Below are positions 1,118 through 28,363 of a stretch of DNA of 64,000 nt, in pieces. Source of the DNA: Bacteroidota bacterium (GTDB lineage Bacteria; Bacteroidota; Bacteroidia; Bacteroidales; JAGONC01); NCBI GenBank assembly GCA_026391695.1, contig JAPLDP010000086.1, forward strand, positions 1 through 64,000. Reading direction: 5' to 3'. A program made the position numbers and the translations under genes. How positions within the stretch are numbered: the first letter of the stretch is position 1; the number at the start of each line of letters is the position of its first letter. The notes under the pieces were generated by a model. The model was not told where the DNA came from and ran no database searches. It was given only the letters and a program-made list of their open reading frames with translations.

Positions 1118-1150
1118 TATTTATACCAAAACACCCTAAAAGGTCGGGGC
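1118..1150. repeat. 33-bp direct repeat, copy 1
   Basis: Identical over 33 bp to 1698-1730 and in the same orientation; core ACCAAAACACCCTAAAAGG. Similarity continues on the right (gaaaaa-ttttcaaca, about 1158-1173 against 1738-1753). It sits 20 bases upstream of the proposed ATT start of the gene ending at 703. Read on the minus strand both copies and their flanks encode a similar peptide (PDLLGCFGIN), so it may be a shared 5' coding stretch, a leader or a regulatory element. It has no TTTG-N19-TAnnTTTG promoter. Confidence 0.8.
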
Positions 1151-1476: not shown

Positions 1477-1623
1477 TTAAGGATCATCATCACTTTTGGG
1501 ACCTGGAGGTGGGCTAATTGGTGGAGGTGGAGGTGGATCCCCCCCTCCCCTGATCTTATTCATTTGAAAATAAGTCAGTTGGTCATACTGGTTCTTAGTA
1601 AAGAACGGATTTTGAGTGTACAT
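1477..1623 (-). CDS. Possible double-glycine-leader peptide with proline-rich tail
   Basis: From the only in-frame ATG (1623) the frame encodes 48 residues: a leader ending LTYFQMNKIRGG and a tail GDPPPPPPISPPPGPKSDDDP. A leader of about 26 residues with hydrophobic spacing before GG resembles Bacteroidota double-glycine precursors that are cleaved and exported by peptidase-containing ABC transporters. However, the frame stays open to 1755 without ATG, and its upstream part (GAIEADVEKLKKSRQTLQNA) also looks like coding helix, so the real start may be a non-ATG codon near 1683, or this may be the 3' end of a broken gene. No transporter is nearby. The direct repeat 1698-1730 lies just upstream. 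Confidence 0.4.
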   Translation of the reverse strand: MYTQNPFFTKNQYDQLTYFQMNKIRGGGDPPPPPPISPPPGPKSDDDP

Positions 1624-1697: not shown

Positions 1698-1730
1698 TAT
1701 TTATACCAAAACACCCTAAAAGGTCGGGGC
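1698..1730. repeat. 33-bp direct repeat, copy 2
   Basis: Exact copy of 1118-1150, 580 bp away, in the same orientation. It precedes the peptide-like frame at 1477-1623, and the frame through it reads PDLLGCFGIN before continuing into that peptide. The rest of 1731-1870, upstream of the CHAT gene, is AT-rich with no recognisable gene. Confidence 0.8.
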
Positions 1731-1870: not shown

Positions 1871-4800
1871 ATGATAGTATCGCCTATTTATAGTTTCCTG
1901 ATCGTGTTTGTCATTACATTAAATGTACTGGGAGGTGAAGTGCATTATGGTGCCTCCGGCGATAACTCATTGCGTGCAATCCGGAAAGATACCGTTAGCC
2001 GGGCCGAAAGCTTTTACCAATCAGGTAATTACGACAGCGCTTTGTACTATTTTTCGAAAGCTTCTGAATTCTATTATCATGCCAGTGACTGGCCCACTTA
2101 TAGTAAAAGTCTAACCGGTATCAGTAAATGTTACCGGAAAAAGGGTGACATTGTTGATGCAGGGTTATTTCTTTATAAAGCCGACAGTTTATATAAAGTA
2201 AAGCACATCGAAGACAAGTTTCTTTTCGCAGATATTGAATATAACAAGTCTATGATTTTATTTGAAAATGGAGCTTATCATGAATCAATTGAAACTATAA
2301 ACGAGTTCATTAAAACCTGGAAACCTCTGGCCAATAATAAAGATACTGTTTTAGCCCTTTTTTATAACGCACTCGGATTGAATTACCGGACGCTAGGTGA
2401 TATTGATATGGCACTTGAATATTATCGGACAGCTGTCGATTTAAAAAAAAATGGGGAAGGCAGTAATGATAATGAGTTAGCAACATATTACAATAATGTG
2501 GCCATTACGTATTTGGTAAAAGGTTCTTATCTCGAAGCCATTAGCTATTCGAAAAAAGCTATTGATATATATGAATTGAGCCCAACTACATATACAGTAA
2601 ATTTGGCAAAGGTATATATAACACTTGGCGGAATCTATGAACAAATGGGTAACTATGATTCTGCTTTAATTATTTTTGATAAGGCGGCGTTTATATATCA
2701 ATCACATCTTGGTTCGAATTATTATAAACTTGGGGATGTATACATAAATATTGGCAATATTTTCAATTTGAAAGGTGAATGGTTAAAGTCAGTAGAATAT
2801 TACAATAATGCAAGGCTCATCTTGGAAGTAAATAATATTCCAAACAAATCAAGATTTTCAGACATTATATACACTACCGGTTTAATCTATTACAATAATC
2901 AGCAATATCAAGAAGCAAAATCGGAATTTGTTAAATGTATCGATATCAGTAAAAAATTTTGTCCTTCCTATCTTCCCTATACATACGCTGCTCTGGCTGA
3001 CTGTTACGTAATGCTTAATGATCCTGATATGGCCAGCCAATATTATTCAATGACCATTGAAGAAAGAATTAAATGTTCCGGCAGCCATCATCCTGATCTT
3101 GCCTTTGATTATCTCAGTTATAGTATTTTTTTATGGAGAACGAATGATAGTACAAGGTGTTTTAATTACATGCAAAAAGCCTATGATATTTATGTCCTCA
3201 ATTATGGAATAAGACATCCTTCTACTGCTAATGTATTGACGTATATGGGTGATTATTACTCAGGCAAGGGAGCCTACAGTCAGGCTCTGGATTATTACCA
3301 AAAGGCCTTAATAGCTGTATCAAAGAATTTTAATGTTGAGGATGATTTTTCAAATCCATCGATTCATGAATGCCTATCGGAGATCCAGTTGCTCAAAACA
3401 TTAAAAAGGAAAGCCGAAGCCCTTTATAAGCTTTATCAGCTTTATCCCGACAGCCTGCAGGTGCTTGAAGCCGGCCTGAAAACATCACAGCTTGCTGTCG
3501 ATCTGATACAATACTTACGTATATCCTATACTGACCCGGAAAGTAAAATCGCAGTGACGGAAAATTACCGCAGTACACTTATCACCGGACTTAAAATCGC
3601 AATGGAATTGTATGACGTGACAAAAAATGTCGAATTTTTAAGCCATGCCTTTGCCTTCGCCGAATTATCAAAAGCAGCAATTTTACAGGAAACGATGAAA
3701 GATGCCGAGGCAAAAATTGTGGGAAATGTTCCGGCAAGCTACATCGACAAGGAAAAAGAATACAATCATTCCATTTATGCATCTCAACAGCTTGTTTCAG
3801 AAGAATTACTACAAAAAAATCCCGATAGTGTGAAAATTGATCTGTGGAATGAAAAACTCTTTGAATTAAAAAACGAGAGAACAAATTTTGTCAAAGAGCT
3901 TGAAAAGAAATTTCCTTTATACTATGACCTGAAATATGGTCAGAACGTCATTACTCTTGACGGACTTCTTAAAAATATGGGTCCAAACGAGGCCATTATT
4001 GAGTACGTTGTTGAAGATCTGTTCATCTATATTTTTGCCTGTAATGATGAAGGAGAATCTGCAGTAGCCGTTGAAACCGTCGACAGCAGCTTTTATGCGC
4101 AAGTCGAAGAGATCATAAATGATTTATATACAGAAAATTTCGATCATCAGTCCATGAGCGAATTCTCTGAATTTACTGGCGCCTTATACGACCTCTATAC
4201 AAAATTATTATTGCCTGTTTCGGCATTATTGACAGATAAAGATTTGATCATCATACCTGACGGCAAGTTAGCGTACATTCCTTTCGAGATATTGCTTGAC
4301 GAGGCGCCTGTCAGTCAAAATGATTACTATAAACTGGGGTACCTGCTGAAGAGACATGCCATCGGATACAGCTACTCTGCGACGCTTCTGTCGGGTGAAA
4401 GGTTCCACAGGAATGTTGCAAAAAACAGGCTGGTGGCTTTTGCTCCCGATTACAACTACCATACTATCGCTGATAAAATAACTAATAGAGATACAACATC
4501 AAAAGACGCTCCGGTACATTTGAAGTTCGTGCAGGATGAAGTGTCGTTTATTGCCAGGTTATACCGGGGAGATGTTTTCAAAGACAGCGATGCAAATGAA
4601 ACGCTTTTTAAGTCATGTGCCGGTGATTACTCCATCATTCATCTTGCCATGCATGGGTTTATTGATGAAGATAATCCGATGTATTCGAAACTTATCTTTG
4701 CCTCAGATAACGACTCTGTTGATGACGGATATCTGTATACGTACGAAATATATAACCTGACTCTGAACGCTACGATGGCCGTATTGAGTGCCTGTAATAC

Positions 4801-5203
4801 TTTTTCGGGCCACTATATTAATGGCGAAGGCATCATGAGCATAGCACGTGGATTTTATTTTGCCGGTTGTCCCGGGATTATTGCAACACGATGGCCGGTA
4901 TATGATAAAAGCAGTGCTGAAATCATAAAAACATTTTACTCCTATCTCAAAAAGGGCAAATCCAAGATTGAATCGTTACGGCTTGCAAAACTAGCGTATC
5001 TTGAATCGGCCGATCCACTGAATAGCCATCCTCATTTCTGGGCCGGATTTGCCAGCATAGGGAATCCGGCAAATGTTCCATGTAGCGATAAGTACCGCCC
5101 AGCCTTTGTATTAACGCTGATCATCCTTATAGTGGGTATTTCAGGGATAAGTTTATTAAGAAGGTGCGGGTATAAGGTGAAATGGAAAAAGAGGCGATAT
5201 TAA
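1871..5203 (+). CDS. Secreted TPR-CHAT caspase-like protease
   Basis: An 1110-residue protein. Residues 1-22 form a signal peptide or anchor. About residues 40-560 are tandem tetratricopeptide repeats (for example YYNNVAITYLVKGSYLEAI), followed by a helical linker and a C-terminal CHAT domain. The CHAT catalytic pair is intact: His928 in HLAMHGF and Cys975 in VLSACNTFSG, with the usual GEGIMSIARGFYFAG after it. A membrane helix near 1078-1098 is followed by a basic tail, so most of the protein is probably periplasmic and anchored at its C-terminus. CHAT domains are caspase-fold cysteine proteases (separase relatives, Csx29). The stop overlaps by four bases the stop of the convergent anti-sigma-like gene. 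Substrate unknown; the neighbouring membrane anti-sigma-like protein is an obvious candidate, but that is inference. Confidence 0.85.
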   Translation: MIVSPIYSFLIVFVITLNVLGGEVHYGASGDNSLRAIRKDTVSRAESFYQSGNYDSALYYFSKASEFYYHASDWPTYSKSLTGISKCYRKKGDIVDAGLFLYKADSLYKVKHIEDKFLFADIEYNKSMILFENGAYHESIETINEFIKTWKPLANNKDTVLALFYNALGLNYRTLGDIDMALEYYRTAVDLKKNGEGSNDNELATYYNNVAITYLVKGSYLEAISYSKKAIDIYELSPTTYTVNLAKVYITLGGIYEQMGNYDSALIIFDKAAFIYQSHLGSNYYKLGDVYINIGNIFNLKGEWLKSVEYYNNARLILEVNNIPNKSRFSDIIYTTGLIYYNNQQYQEAKSEFVKCIDISKKFCPSYLPYTYAALADCYVMLNDPDMASQYYSMTIEERIKCSGSHHPDLAFDYLSYSIFLWRTNDSTRCFNYMQKAYDIYVLNYGIRHPSTANVLTYMGDYYSGKGAYSQALDYYQKALIAVSKNFNVEDDFSNPSIHECLSEIQLLKTLKRKAEALYKLYQLYPDSLQVLEAGLKTSQLAVDLIQYLRISYTDPESKIAVTENYRSTLITGLKIAMELYDVTKNVEFLSHAFAFAELSKAAILQETMKDAEAKIVGNVPASYIDKEKEYNHSIYASQQLVSEELLQKNPDSVKIDLWNEKLFELKNERTNFVKELEKKFPLYYDLKYGQNVITLDGLLKNMGPNEAIIEYVVEDLFIYIFACNDEGESAVAVETVDSSFYAQVEEIINDLYTENFDHQSMSEFSEFTGALYDLYTKLLLPVSALLTDKDLIIIPDGKLAYIPFEILLDEAPVSQNDYYKLGYLLKRHAIGYSYSATLLSGERFHRNVAKNRLVAFAPDYNYHTIADKITNRDTTSKDAPVHLKFVQDEVSFIARLYRGDVFKDSDANETLFKSCAGDYSIIHLAMHGFIDEDNPMYSKLIFASDNDSVDDGYLYTYEIYNLTLNATMAVLSACNTFSGHYINGEGIMSIARGFYFAGCPGIIATRWPVYDKSSAEIIKTFYSYLKKGKSKIESLRLAKLAYLESADPLNSHPHFWAGFASIGNPANVPCSDKYRPAFVLTLIILIVGISGISLLRRCGYKVKWKKRRY

Positions 5204-5949
5204 TCGTGTCTCATTTTTGAAAGTAATGTCCCGGCCATTTTTTGATAATGGTGGCTTGTTCGCTTAAGTTCCTGCAATAATTCTTCCGCACCAGGTATAT
5301 TCTCTGTTTTTAAATAGGTTAAAGCCAGATACCATCGGGCCTGATCGGAAAACAAAATATCCTGATGGTCAATCACAGTCTGCAGGTAAGGAATGGCTTC
5401 ATTGTATCTCTCAAGTTCCATCAGTGAGATGGCTGTGTAAAACGGCGTGGCCATATCCGATGAATCGGTTTGCCTGACGCGGATAAAGTTGGAGTAAGCT
5501 CCCTGGTAGTCCTGCACATCATATAATTGCAACCCTGTTGAAAAAATTGTGTTGGTTTGATTGATGCCGGATCTGACATCGCCGGGTGTCTCATAAACAT
5601 GGTAATAACGTGCAAACAGTTTGTCACTGTCTTGATGTCTGCCGGGCATAATGATCCACATGGCCGCTGTAGCAACTGAAATCAGGATGAGGGCTGCCGC
5701 TGCATATTTCAACCACCCGACGGAGTGTTTTTTATTTACTACCTCGTGGTGGATTTCTTCAAGCATGTCCCTCAACCTATTCACGTCATCCTGCATCAAA
5801 GCCTTGTCCACTTTGCAATGCAGCCGGTACATCCTGTTCAGTTCGGGATTGGTATTAAGTTCATGTTCAAACTCTTCCCGCTCTTTCCCTGTCAAATCCC
5901 CATTTAGGTAATCAATTATTAACAAGTTGTAATTCCGGTTGATTTTCAT
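5200..5949 (-). CDS. Membrane anti-sigma-like protein with periplasmic TPRs
   Basis: A 249-residue single-pass protein. Residues 1-75 are cytoplasmic and carry a short anti-sigma-like helical region (IDYLNGDLTGKEREEFEHEL). The membrane helix is at about 80-101 (KYAAAALILISVATAAMWII). Residues 130-249 are tetratricopeptide-like repeats outside the membrane. Its start lies 38 bp inside the sigma factor gene, so the two are translationally linked. By analogy with ECF sigma/anti-sigma pairs it should hold the sigma factor at the membrane until a signal arrives. The zinc HxxxCxxC motif of ZAS anti-sigmas is absent. It is a clear relative of the protein at 26682-27440, with the same layout and an LFxxYY stretch just after the helix. 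Confidence 0.75.
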   Translation of the reverse strand: MKINRNYNLLIIDYLNGDLTGKEREEFEHELNTNPELNRMYRLHCKVDKALMQDDVNRLRDMLEEIHHEVVNKKHSVGWLKYAAAALILISVATAAMWIIMPGRHQDSDKLFARYYHVYETPGDVRSGINQTNTIFSTGLQLYDVQDYQGAYSNFIRVRQTDSSDMATPFYTAISLMELERYNEAIPYLQTVIDHQDILFSDQARWYLALTYLKTENIPGAEELLQELKRTSHHYQKMAGTLLSKMRHD

Positions 5950-6523
5950 GTTCCATCATTACTTTAAATTCCGGGTCTTCCCTGATATTTCTGATCAAGG
6001 TTACCTTGCAACTGTATTTTTTTCTTCTGACGTCGATAACACCTTCATAGTTCATTATGCTGGCAATTTCTTTTGTCTGGATTTTTTCCAGGTAAAATTT
6101 TATAATTTTCCGGCATTCCTCACTCAGATTATTAAAATGTTTATAAAATAACCTGGATTCGCGATTTATTATATAAGTTGCGAATAATTCGTCTACTTCT
6201 TCTTTTCTCAGGCACTCATAATCGTTGTTATCCTCATCAAACTGTTTCATGCGCCATCTTATCTCTTTAAACCACAGGTTTTTGCAAACCGAAAACAAAA
6301 AAGTCTGAAAAGAGCATGTGAGTTCAAGGTCACTATGTTTTATCTTTTCATAGATTATAATAATTGTTTCCTGAAAAATGTCCTTGGCATCGTCGACGCT
6401 GCCAAAATTATTCATTACAAATTGTTCGACCAGAGGATAATTGGCGCTATATACTTCATTAAGAATCTTACGGTCGCAGTGTCTAATTCCGTCAATGATT
6501 ATTTCGGACCCTCTGTATCTCAT
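5912..6523 (-). CDS. ECF-like RNA polymerase sigma factor
   Basis: A 203-residue sigma-70 family protein. Region 2 contains DDAKDIFQETIIIIYEKI (about 43-60), matching the region 2.1-2.2 DAEDxxQExF pattern, followed by FLFSVCKNLWFKEIR. Region 4 is near 130-175 (EECRKIIKFYLEKIQTKEIA), ending in a basic recognition helix. No region 1.1 or 3 is visible, as in ECF types. It is the first gene of a two-gene operon with the anti-sigma-like protein and has a textbook housekeeping promoter (6572-6602), so the operon is not obviously autoregulated. It is a paralogue of the factor at 27437-28012. Confidence 0.85.
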   Translation of the reverse strand: MRYRGSEIIIDGIRHCDRKILNEVYSANYPLVEQFVMNNFGSVDDAKDIFQETIIIIYEKIKHSDLELTCSFQTFLFSVCKNLWFKEIRWRMKQFDEDNNDYECLRKEEVDELFATYIINRESRLFYKHFNNLSEECRKIIKFYLEKIQTKEIASIMNYEGVIDVRRKKYSCKVTLIRNIREDPEFKVMMEHENQPELQLVNN

Positions 6524-26681: not shown

Positions 26682-27440
26682 TTATTTTGATTTTTTAATC
26701 TGGTTCAGCAACCTGGAGGCGTCGTTTCTATAATAATTATTGGTATCGTAGGCCATATTTCTGAAAAGTTCGATGGCCTGGTCGGTTTGATTGATTTTCA
26801 GCAGGCATAATCCAAGATACCACTGAGCATGTTCGACGTAGAGATTTTTCCCGTTATTAATAATCTCTTCAAGGTTAATGATAGCCTTATCAACCTGGTT
26901 TGTTTCGATAAATGAAATAGCGAGATAGAATCTGACTGCAGCATTATTTGGATCATCGGCAATGACGTCATTAAACAGGTCGATAGCAGTAGGAAAATCT
27001 TTTTGCTGGTATAAGCGCAAAGCTTCAACGAGATAAGTGCCTTCGGAGCGAGTAATATTCAATTTATCTGAATCATAGTACATGCTGAACAGCCTGCTGT
27101 TGGAATAGGTTTTCGGCATCAGGAGATAGACAGAGGCAGCAATCATGATCAGGATAGTCACTGAAGCAGCCATGAGGGCATAACTTTTCCTCGTAAGGGG
27201 TATAATCCTGTTCCGATATTTTTTCTGTTTAGATTCCGAGATAGCATCGCTGAGTTTCTGCCGGAATTCAATGATATTCTGCTGTTTAAGAAGATCAGAA
27301 AGGTCTCTTTCAAATGCCAGCTCCTGGATTAGTTCCTTGTTTGACTGCAGTTCCAGCTCAAAGGCTCTGGCTTCGGCACTATCCATTTCGCCAACCAGGT
27401 ACCTGTCGATCATGAGCAGATATTTATATTTTTCGTTCAT
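26682..27440 (-). CDS. Membrane anti-sigma-like protein with TPRs, second copy
   Basis: A 252-residue single-pass protein. The N-terminal cytoplasmic part has IDRYLVGEMDSAEARAFELEL, similar in pattern to IDYLNGDLTGKEREEFEHEL of the copy at 5200-5949. The membrane helix is at about 88-108. The outer part has tetratricopeptide repeats (AVRFYLAISFIETNQVDKAI and AQWYLGLCLLKINQTDQAI). Its ATG overlaps the sigma factor stop by four bases (ATGA), so the two are translationally coupled. There is no CHAT protease gene beside this copy. Confidence 0.75.
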   Translation of the reverse strand: MNEKYKYLLMIDRYLVGEMDSAEARAFELELQSNKELIQELAFERDLSDLLKQQNIIEFRQKLSDAISESKQKKYRNRIIPLTRKSYALMAASVTILIMIAASVYLLMPKTYSNSRLFSMYYDSDKLNITRSEGTYLVEALRLYQQKDFPTAIDLFNDVIADDPNNAAVRFYLAISFIETNQVDKAIINLEEIINNGKNLYVEHAQWYLGLCLLKINQTDQAIELFRNMAYDTNNYYRNDASRLLNQIKKSK

Positions 27441-28012
27441 TGAGCTAAATATTTTTTACACTTTGGATCACTGAGTATCCGTTGTCTGAGATTTTCTTTA
27501 CAGAGATATTTTCTGGTTTTGGCATATTTTTCGGTTTTGTACCCCATGATGTCAGCAATATCTTTTAAGGTCGTATGACTGTAAAAAAGTTTAAGAACCT
27601 TCTGACAGTCCTTACTGAGTTTGACAAAGTGTTGCTGGTACAACCTGTATTTTTCCGACTGTTCATCATAGATTTCAAAGACCATTTCATCTGATAATTC
27701 GATATGGTTTTCGATATCCGCGATATTGGCCGGATTTTTCTCTTTTTCAAGGCGTTGTAACCAAAGATGCCTGCAAACCGAATATAAAAACGTTTTAAAA
27801 GAACAATCGAGCACTAAATCATTATCTAATACTCTCTGATAAATTATAACGAGGGCGTCCTGGAAAATATCTTCTGCATCCTGTTCATTGCCACTGTTTC
27901 TCAGGATCAAACTCCTGATAGTCTTGAAATACCATTCATACACATACTTCAGGATATTTTTATCGCCTGCGAGGATACCCTTCAGGATAGCCTCATCTTT
28001 ATAATGGATCAT
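27437..28012 (-). CDS. ECF-like RNA polymerase sigma factor, second copy
   Basis: A 191-residue sigma factor. Region 2 has EQDAEDIFQDALVIIYQRV (about 43-61) and FLYSVCRHLWLQRLE; region 4 is near 130-175 (DCQKVLKLFYSHTTLKDIAD). It is clearly homologous to the factor at 5912-6523, with matching DAxDIFQ and FL(F/Y)SVC motifs. It forms an operon with the anti-sigma-like gene. A TACATTTG -7 box lies upstream (minus strand, 28058-28051) but without a good -33 partner, which might mean an activator-dependent promoter. Confidence 0.85.
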   Translation of the reverse strand: MIHYKDEAILKGILAGDKNILKYVYEWYFKTIRSLILRNSGNEQDAEDIFQDALVIIYQRVLDNDLVLDCSFKTFLYSVCRHLWLQRLEKEKNPANIADIENHIELSDEMVFEIYDEQSEKYRLYQQHFVKLSKDCQKVLKLFYSHTTLKDIADIMGYKTEKYAKTRKYLCKENLRQRILSDPKCKKYLAQ

Positions 28013-28363
28013 CAGACTGCTTTTTATCGGAAATTTTCAAAAAGGTAATACAAATGTATGAGAATTATTTCGCATTTGTTAACATCTCAGTAAAATGTTA
28101 ATAAGCATGTATGACCTAATAACAGATGTGCAAATGTACAAACCATTTATCACACGGAGCAGGTTTATGATCGTATTCCATAAGTATTGCACCCAACTGC
28201 CTGAGGCAATCATATTTCTATCATGTTATAAGGCGACAGCCTGGTATTTAAAGGTAGTTCCAATTTTAATTCCGGATCACCATCCTCCGGAATCTTCTCA
28301 TCGGAACCGGCTTATATCGGAACTCCCATTGTATAATATCGTAACTTTGTAAAAAAATCAAAC
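28013..28363. other. Intergenic gap between sigma factor and mutS2
   Basis: No convincing gene. It holds a -7-like TACATTTG for the sigma gene (minus, 28058-28051), a short inverted repeat ATTCCGG/CCGGAAT (28269-28275 and 28287-28293), and TAACTTTG (28342-28349), a perfect -7 box 14 bases before the mutS2 GTG, again without a TTTG at the expected spacing. An 85-codon frame from 28095 lacks coding character. Confidence 0.4.

Follow-up and report, generated by a model that had tools for sequence, protein, structure and literature searches.

The stretch analyzed here (hereafter, the window) comprises positions 1 to 64,000 of the forward strand of contig JAPLDP010000086.1, from a Bacteroidota bacterium of the order Bacteroidales (GenBank assembly GCA_026391695.1). 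Between positions 1871 and 6523, it encodes a protein combining tetratricopeptide repeats (TPRs) with a CHAT protease domain, a membrane protein resembling an anti-sigma factor, and a sigma factor of the extracytoplasmic function (ECF) type. A previous, sequence-only reading had described these as an intact CHAT protein meeting, tail to tail and with a four-base stop overlap, a membrane anti-sigma factor with outer TPRs and its sigma factor. The open reading frames (ORFs) and their profile matches bear out this description, and both catalytic codons and the overlap could be read directly from the DNA. The features, including two candidate sites discussed below, are as follows.

1871..5203, plus strand: TPR-CHAT protein, 1110 residues, with an N-terminal signal sequence, a TPR array up to about residue 600, the CHAT domain (774-1065), and a C-terminal transmembrane segment (TM) with a K/R-rich tail
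4652..4654, plus strand: codon of catalytic His928, invariant in relatives
4793..4795, plus strand: codon of catalytic Cys975, invariant in relatives
4904..4906, plus strand: codon of Asp1012, candidate S1 residue in a W-x-x-x-D motif (compare LWDVTD in separase)
5200..5203, no strand assigned: four-base overlap of two stop codons, the CHAT TAA (5201-5203, plus strand) and the anti-sigma stop (5200-5202, minus strand)
5200..5949, minus strand: anti-sigma factor, 249 residues, with a cytoplasmic N-terminal domain, one TM, a juxtamembrane helix, a loop, and a TPR domain
5569..5574, minus strand: codons of Arg126-Ser127, candidate P1-P1' cleavage site within anti-sigma loop 116-130
5912..6523, minus strand: ECF-type sigma factor; its gene shares 38 bp with the start of the anti-sigma gene

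The CHAT domain matched PF12770 with an E value of 3e-52 (178 bits against a cut-off of 24), alongside many TPRs, and the sigma factor matched Sigma70_r2 (3e-8) and, over residues 21-158, the sigma70-ECF superfamily model TIGR02937 (2e-13; 50.1 bits against a cut-off of 42.9). With the type III-E sigma model NF041236, on the other hand, it scored 16.7 bits, well short of the cut-off of 100. The anti-sigma factor has one hydrophobic segment, at about residues 81-99, and a C-terminal TPR region (TPR_19, 4e-6), while its matches to anti-sigma profiles were weak and fell under the cut-off. An ECF sigma gene overlapping the gene for a one-TM protein, as found here, is what an ECF sigma/membrane anti-sigma pair would show.

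A survey of the order, covering 198 genomes and 101 anti-sigma loci, revealed that this arrangement is widespread. A CHAT gene within 4 kb, which we took as linked, accompanied 58 of the 101 loci, compared with about 0.7 expected from a rough density estimate; 38 of these pairs were convergent, 14 divergent, and 6 on the same strand, the convergent ones being mostly separated by less than 150 bp and, in five cases, sharing the four-base overlap. At the level of genomes, CHAT was present in 67 of the 69 with a strong anti-sigma but in 37 of the 129 without (Fisher P = 4e-23, a nominal value, since related genomes are not independent), and in one of the remaining two, a contig end truncates a CHAT homologue to its N-terminal part. 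For a held-out set, chosen by CHAT alone and with the test written down beforehand, 58 new CHAT genes were collected: 38 were linked, 12 were unlinked but truncated, and 8 were truly unlinked, giving 38 of the 46 with enough flank. Finally, a scan of named genomes, which relied on the CHAT profile because the anti-sigma profile was too variable, recovered the same gene sets in records of Bacteroidales, Labilibaculum, Prolixibacter, Draconibacterium, Aquimarina, Fulvivirga, and Saprospiraceae, although some of these are the same assemblies as in the order-wide survey, so that the counts are not fully independent. The co-occurrence that the sequence-only reading had suggested surveying is thus real: CHAT and anti-sigma genes are linked beyond chance, both order- and phylum-wide. 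A fortuitous or hitch-hiking neighborhood with no functional tie would fit the lack of linkage in the four genomes closest to that of the window (see below), but the order-wide and held-out surveys rule it out on statistical grounds, and linkage recurs in three orientations across the phylum and even on a 15-kb plasmid; we regard this explanation as exceedingly improbable. In one locus (L116), a single CHAT gene lies between two different anti-sigma genes, together with two tandem double-glycine peptide genes.

The linked CHAT proteins retain the His/Cys catalytic dyad. The catalytic His and Cys were invariant in 50 of 50 linked proteins and in all 58 held-out ones, and among the pooled CHAT/anti-sigma pairs they were kept in 96 of 97, the remaining one being an alignment gap at the His. 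According to hydropathy predictions, 47 of 53 linked proteins start with a hydrophobic stretch and 50 of 53 end with a TM followed by a basic tail, which together form the pattern of an exported, C-terminally anchored protein. Such a C-terminal TM occurred in 4 of some 25 unlinked CHAT proteins among the best PF12770 hits, a set with short flanks of which a few may in fact be linked. The same type of prediction assigned exactly one TM to 98 of 103 anti-sigma factors. For almost every linked pair, the CHAT protein and the anti-sigma TPR domain are predicted to lie together in the periplasm, as the sequence-only reading would require. The CHAT protein is probably a caspase-like protease that its C-terminal anchor holds at the inner membrane, on the side facing outward.

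Structure prediction points the same way. A search of the PDB with the single sequence returned TPR matches only, whereas a profile-based search found DdvA and Csx29. The predicted CHAT model (predicted local distance difference test [pLDDT] score of 83) has Csx29 as its best fold match (7y9x; Z score of 28.5, root mean square deviation [rmsd] of 7.0, 570 residues aligned), along with separase (5fby; Z score of 23.9, rmsd of 3.8, 322 residues aligned). That both of these closest folds are proteases is counted as support for the reading proposed below. Also among the structural matches was DdvA (8rw5, Z score of 21.8; 8rot, Z score of 21.5), a transmembrane anti-sigma factor of Myxococcus with a CHAT fold, which raises the alternative that the CHAT ectodomain is a non-proteolytic partner, a sensor subunit that binds the TPR domain of the anti-sigma factor; DdvA itself may work in this way. 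Pure binding, however, would not need His and Cys residues that are invariant over very divergent linked CHAT proteins, nor would it account for a substrate-like motif, Arg followed by a small residue, conserved in the anti-sigma factor, and we consider such a role quite improbable.

That motif lies in the linker between the TM and the TPR domain, which consists of a helix with LFxxYY and a variable loop in which a single Arg is conserved, with Ser, Gly, or Ala right after it. In the AlphaFold2 model of the window's anti-sigma factor (mean pLDDT of 87; generic TPR domains were the only structural matches), the helix spans residues 105-115, the loop 116-130 contains R126-S127, and TPR helices occupy 131-247. 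Arg126 is one of six anti-sigma columns conserved to at least 90% and the most conserved outer residue outside the TPRs. The R[SGA] motif, mostly placed ten residues after YY, was present in 86% of 94 linkers, against 26% when each linker was shuffled, and in 35 of 38 held-out anti-sigma factors, against a shuffled mean of 10. On the enzyme side, Asp1012, at the start of a helix in the model, was kept in 90 of 94 linked CHAT proteins and in all 58 held-out ones. For separase, which shares the clan CD fold and takes Arg at P1, a published model (PMC4626109) shows the P1 Arg in contact with the Asp of the LWDVTD motif; Asp1012 was equated with this Asp by motif, not by superposition. We therefore propose Arg126-Ser127 as the candidate P1-P1' site and Asp1012 as the matching, separase-like S1 residue.

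Taken together, we favor, with moderate confidence, a reading in which the locus forms an envelope switch, with the CHAT protein as a dedicated site-1 protease that releases the sigma factor, much like Csx29/Csx30/CASP-sigma but periplasmic and CRISPR-free. The TPR-CHAT protein would face the periplasm, held by its C-terminal TM, and a signal would act through its TPRs; the protease would then cleave the loop that joins the TM and TPR domain of the anti-sigma factor, on the C-terminal side of Arg126, and the outer part with its TPRs would come off. By analogy with RseA and RsiW, the remaining stub would presumably be finished by general intramembrane and cytoplasmic proteases, setting the ECF sigma factor free, which in turn would activate the operon encoding it (as in many relatives) and also a divergently oriented gene for a double-glycine-leader peptide, the product of which is presumably exported. 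The linkage, predicted sides, catalytic residues, conserved site, and promoter elements on which we draw are all read from sequence, and it is from these that we infer cleavage, sigma release, the trigger, and a role for the peptide in feedback. The claim of the sequence-only reading that a protease releases sigma by cutting the anti-sigma factor without CRISPR is thereby supported in part: linkage, predicted topology, catalytic residues, the conserved exposed Arg, and the S1 Asp all agree with the predicted cleavage.

Several observations weigh against this reading, starting with the second sigma/anti-sigma pair of the window.

26682..27440, minus strand: paralogous anti-sigma factor in a CHAT-free locus; its ortholog in the family lies beside MutS2
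27437..28012, minus strand: paralogous sigma factor, partner of the former
28026..28051, minus strand: promoter element GTATTACCTTTT-N11-GAT, preceding the paralogous sigma gene

This pair, 30-34% identical to the first and adjoining MutS2 across the family, has no CHAT gene alongside, and the window genome encodes just one CHAT protein for two such anti-sigma factors. In four other genomes of the window's family (G001 to G004), CHAT and the pair lie apart: CHAT adjoins PPK2, and the orthologous pair adjoins MutS2. Taken by itself, the family argues against the idea, which the order-wide survey reverses, so that conservation of the CHAT gene beside the sigma pair, as anticipated by the sequence-only reading, holds across the order and phylum but not in the window's own family. 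Moreover, the Arg motif was found in 83% of anti-sigma factors without a CHAT gene at the fetched locus, nearly as often as with one (89%), and could thus be structural or cut by another protease; nearly all genomes concerned do encode a CHAT protein elsewhere. An S1 Asp is common among CHAT domains at large, and a few linked pairs (L163, L226, and L244) have no basic residue at the site. Lastly, the only two CHAT proteins with Asn at S1 (L134 and L146) partner the only two linked anti-sigma factors with Gln at P1, which speaks for the reading, but, being 48% identical and from a single clade of which further members were sought and not found, they amount to one event of Asp-Asn/Arg-Gln exchange. 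The peptides of these two loci have Thr before the double glycine.

The promoter regions connect the sigma factor with such peptides. Counts of shared promoter dyads were swamped by A/T runs, for which a frequency correction was applied. The element TTACCTTTT-N11-GAT was then found upstream of many sigma genes, and, in genomes of the family as well as in the second pair of the window, GTATTACCTTTT-N11-GAT lay ahead of the sigma gene, with no match in the reversed control. In the family, where CHAT is unlinked, this autoregulatory promoter of the sigma factor reappears at a distance of 38-51 bp from where CHAT starts, oriented away from it and toward a small double-glycine-leader gene, as the same element in G001 and G002 and as a close variant in G003 and G004. 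That the CHAT gene itself belongs to the sigma regulon was considered and dropped as weakly supported, with elements facing CHAT in 7 of 163 cases (2.7 after shuffling) versus 19 facing away (2.4 after shuffling). In two family loci (L016 and L019), CHAT lies between a polyphosphate kinase 2-like gene and the peptide gene. The corresponding features of the window are as follows.

1477..1623, minus strand: double-glycine-leader peptide, 48 residues (..NKIRGGGDPPPPPPISPPPGPKSDDDP), divergent from CHAT, with a Pro/Asp-rich tail
1701..1725, minus strand: promoter-like element GACCTTTT-N11-GTATAA, oriented toward the peptide gene; probably read by the sigma factor
1121..1145, minus strand: second, identical copy (25 bp) of the same repeat

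The genome of the window contains five identical or near-identical copies of GACCTTTT-N11-GTATAA, preceding genes whose products are small or apparently exported, and the element would belong to the sigma factor encoded at 5912-6523.

A double-glycine-leader peptide gene was found just upstream of CHAT, mostly divergent, for 48 of 164 CHAT genes with 1 kb of upstream sequence, a count that is inflated because some peptides were seeds of the search model; 58 such peptides occurred in 180 kb next to CHAT, whereas the remaining 3.0 Mb held 20. In 51 of these 58, the residue before the double glycine is Arg or Lys. In the family, the link of CHAT with the peptide is retained where that with sigma is lost. 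All of this would suit an alternative in which CHAT processes or senses the peptide and merely shares a regulon or island with the sigma pair, the anti-sigma factor being inactivated otherwise, by a TPR ligand or a general site-1 protease. Yet held-out CHAT genes are linked to an anti-sigma gene more often than they carry a recognizable peptide, and the Arg of the candidate site is conserved in the anti-sigma factor beyond any other outer residue outside the TPRs. Cutting at R-GG by CHAT is further called into question by peptides with a nonbasic residue before the double glycine (L315, L319, L175, and pAT7). C39 exporters normally cut after the double glycine, and all five family genomes encode them. 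We deem this alternative unlikely. A C39-type exporter lay within 12 of 239 loci; on the 15-kb plasmid pAT7 of Aureibacter tunicatorum (L385), genes for sigma, anti-sigma, CHAT, a small double-glycine peptide, a C39 ABC exporter, HlyD, and TolC all occur together.

Returning to the envelope switch, a protease found repeatedly beside an inhibitor with an exposed-loop Arg suggests that a cut there would turn on a small secreted-peptide program. One could even speculate, tentatively, about a phylum-wide peptide-signaling loop, in which the Arg-specific TPR-CHAT protein acts as site-1 protease and the sigma-driven peptide, whose gene is accompanied at some loci by that of a C39 exporter, acts back on the CHAT TPRs; this extension is possible but rather doubtful. 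Candidate cleavage site, small-peptide gene, and second sigma/anti-sigma pair all go beyond the sequence-only reading.

In RseA- and RsiW-type proteolysis, a membrane anti-sigma factor is first cut outside the membrane, by the site-1 proteases DegS and PrsW, whereas the enzyme here would be a CHAT cysteine protease. Both anti-sigma factors are cited in the account of the type III-E Craspase, which likewise combines a TPR-CHAT protease (Csx29), an inhibitor whose flexible loop is cut, and an ECF-like sigma factor (PMC10028731). There, however, Csx29 is complexed with Cas7-11 and activated by RNA, and Csx30 is cut at residues 427-429 (PMC10028731); here, the predicted signal sequence and C-terminal TM indicate an exported, membrane-anchored protease rather than a cytoplasmic one of the Csx29 type, with a membrane anti-sigma factor as putative substrate and Arg as predicted P1. 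Together with the poor score of the sigma factor against NF041236, the predicted export and anchoring place the system outside the Craspase type despite the similar logic. No Cas7-11 was recognized by eye among the window genes read (positions 1-40000), for which no dedicated CRISPR/Cas scan was made. DdvS/DdvA of Myxococcus (8rot, 8rw5) similarly controls an ECF sigma factor through a transmembrane anti-sigma factor with an outer TPR/CHAT-like fold, but DdvA is one fused protein, whereas anti-sigma and CHAT are separate here, each with its own TM. In ECF54, CHAT proteins occur in the gene context and proteolytic control was proposed, but the group was described as lacking an anti-sigma factor (PMC8999054), whereas a membrane anti-sigma factor is present here. 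Separase differs in being a eukaryotic cohesin protease. In the literature searched, with most subscription journals outside its scope, no account of this module or of CHAT with an anti-sigma factor in Bacteroidota was found.

For most CHAT proteases of bacteria, no substrate is known, and one class would here gain a specific candidate substrate, site, and output. If the proposal is true, Bacteroidota would commonly use the type III-E logic of a protease cutting an anti-sigma factor as an envelope switch, and the site-1 proteases that initiate anti-sigma destruction would come to include a cysteine protease with the caspase/separase fold. As a minor observation, an ORF fragment (GHDYHWYRKDRDGRWSHKMGWT..) at 703-966 on the minus strand, downstream of the second promoter-like repeat, might be a frameshifted gene.

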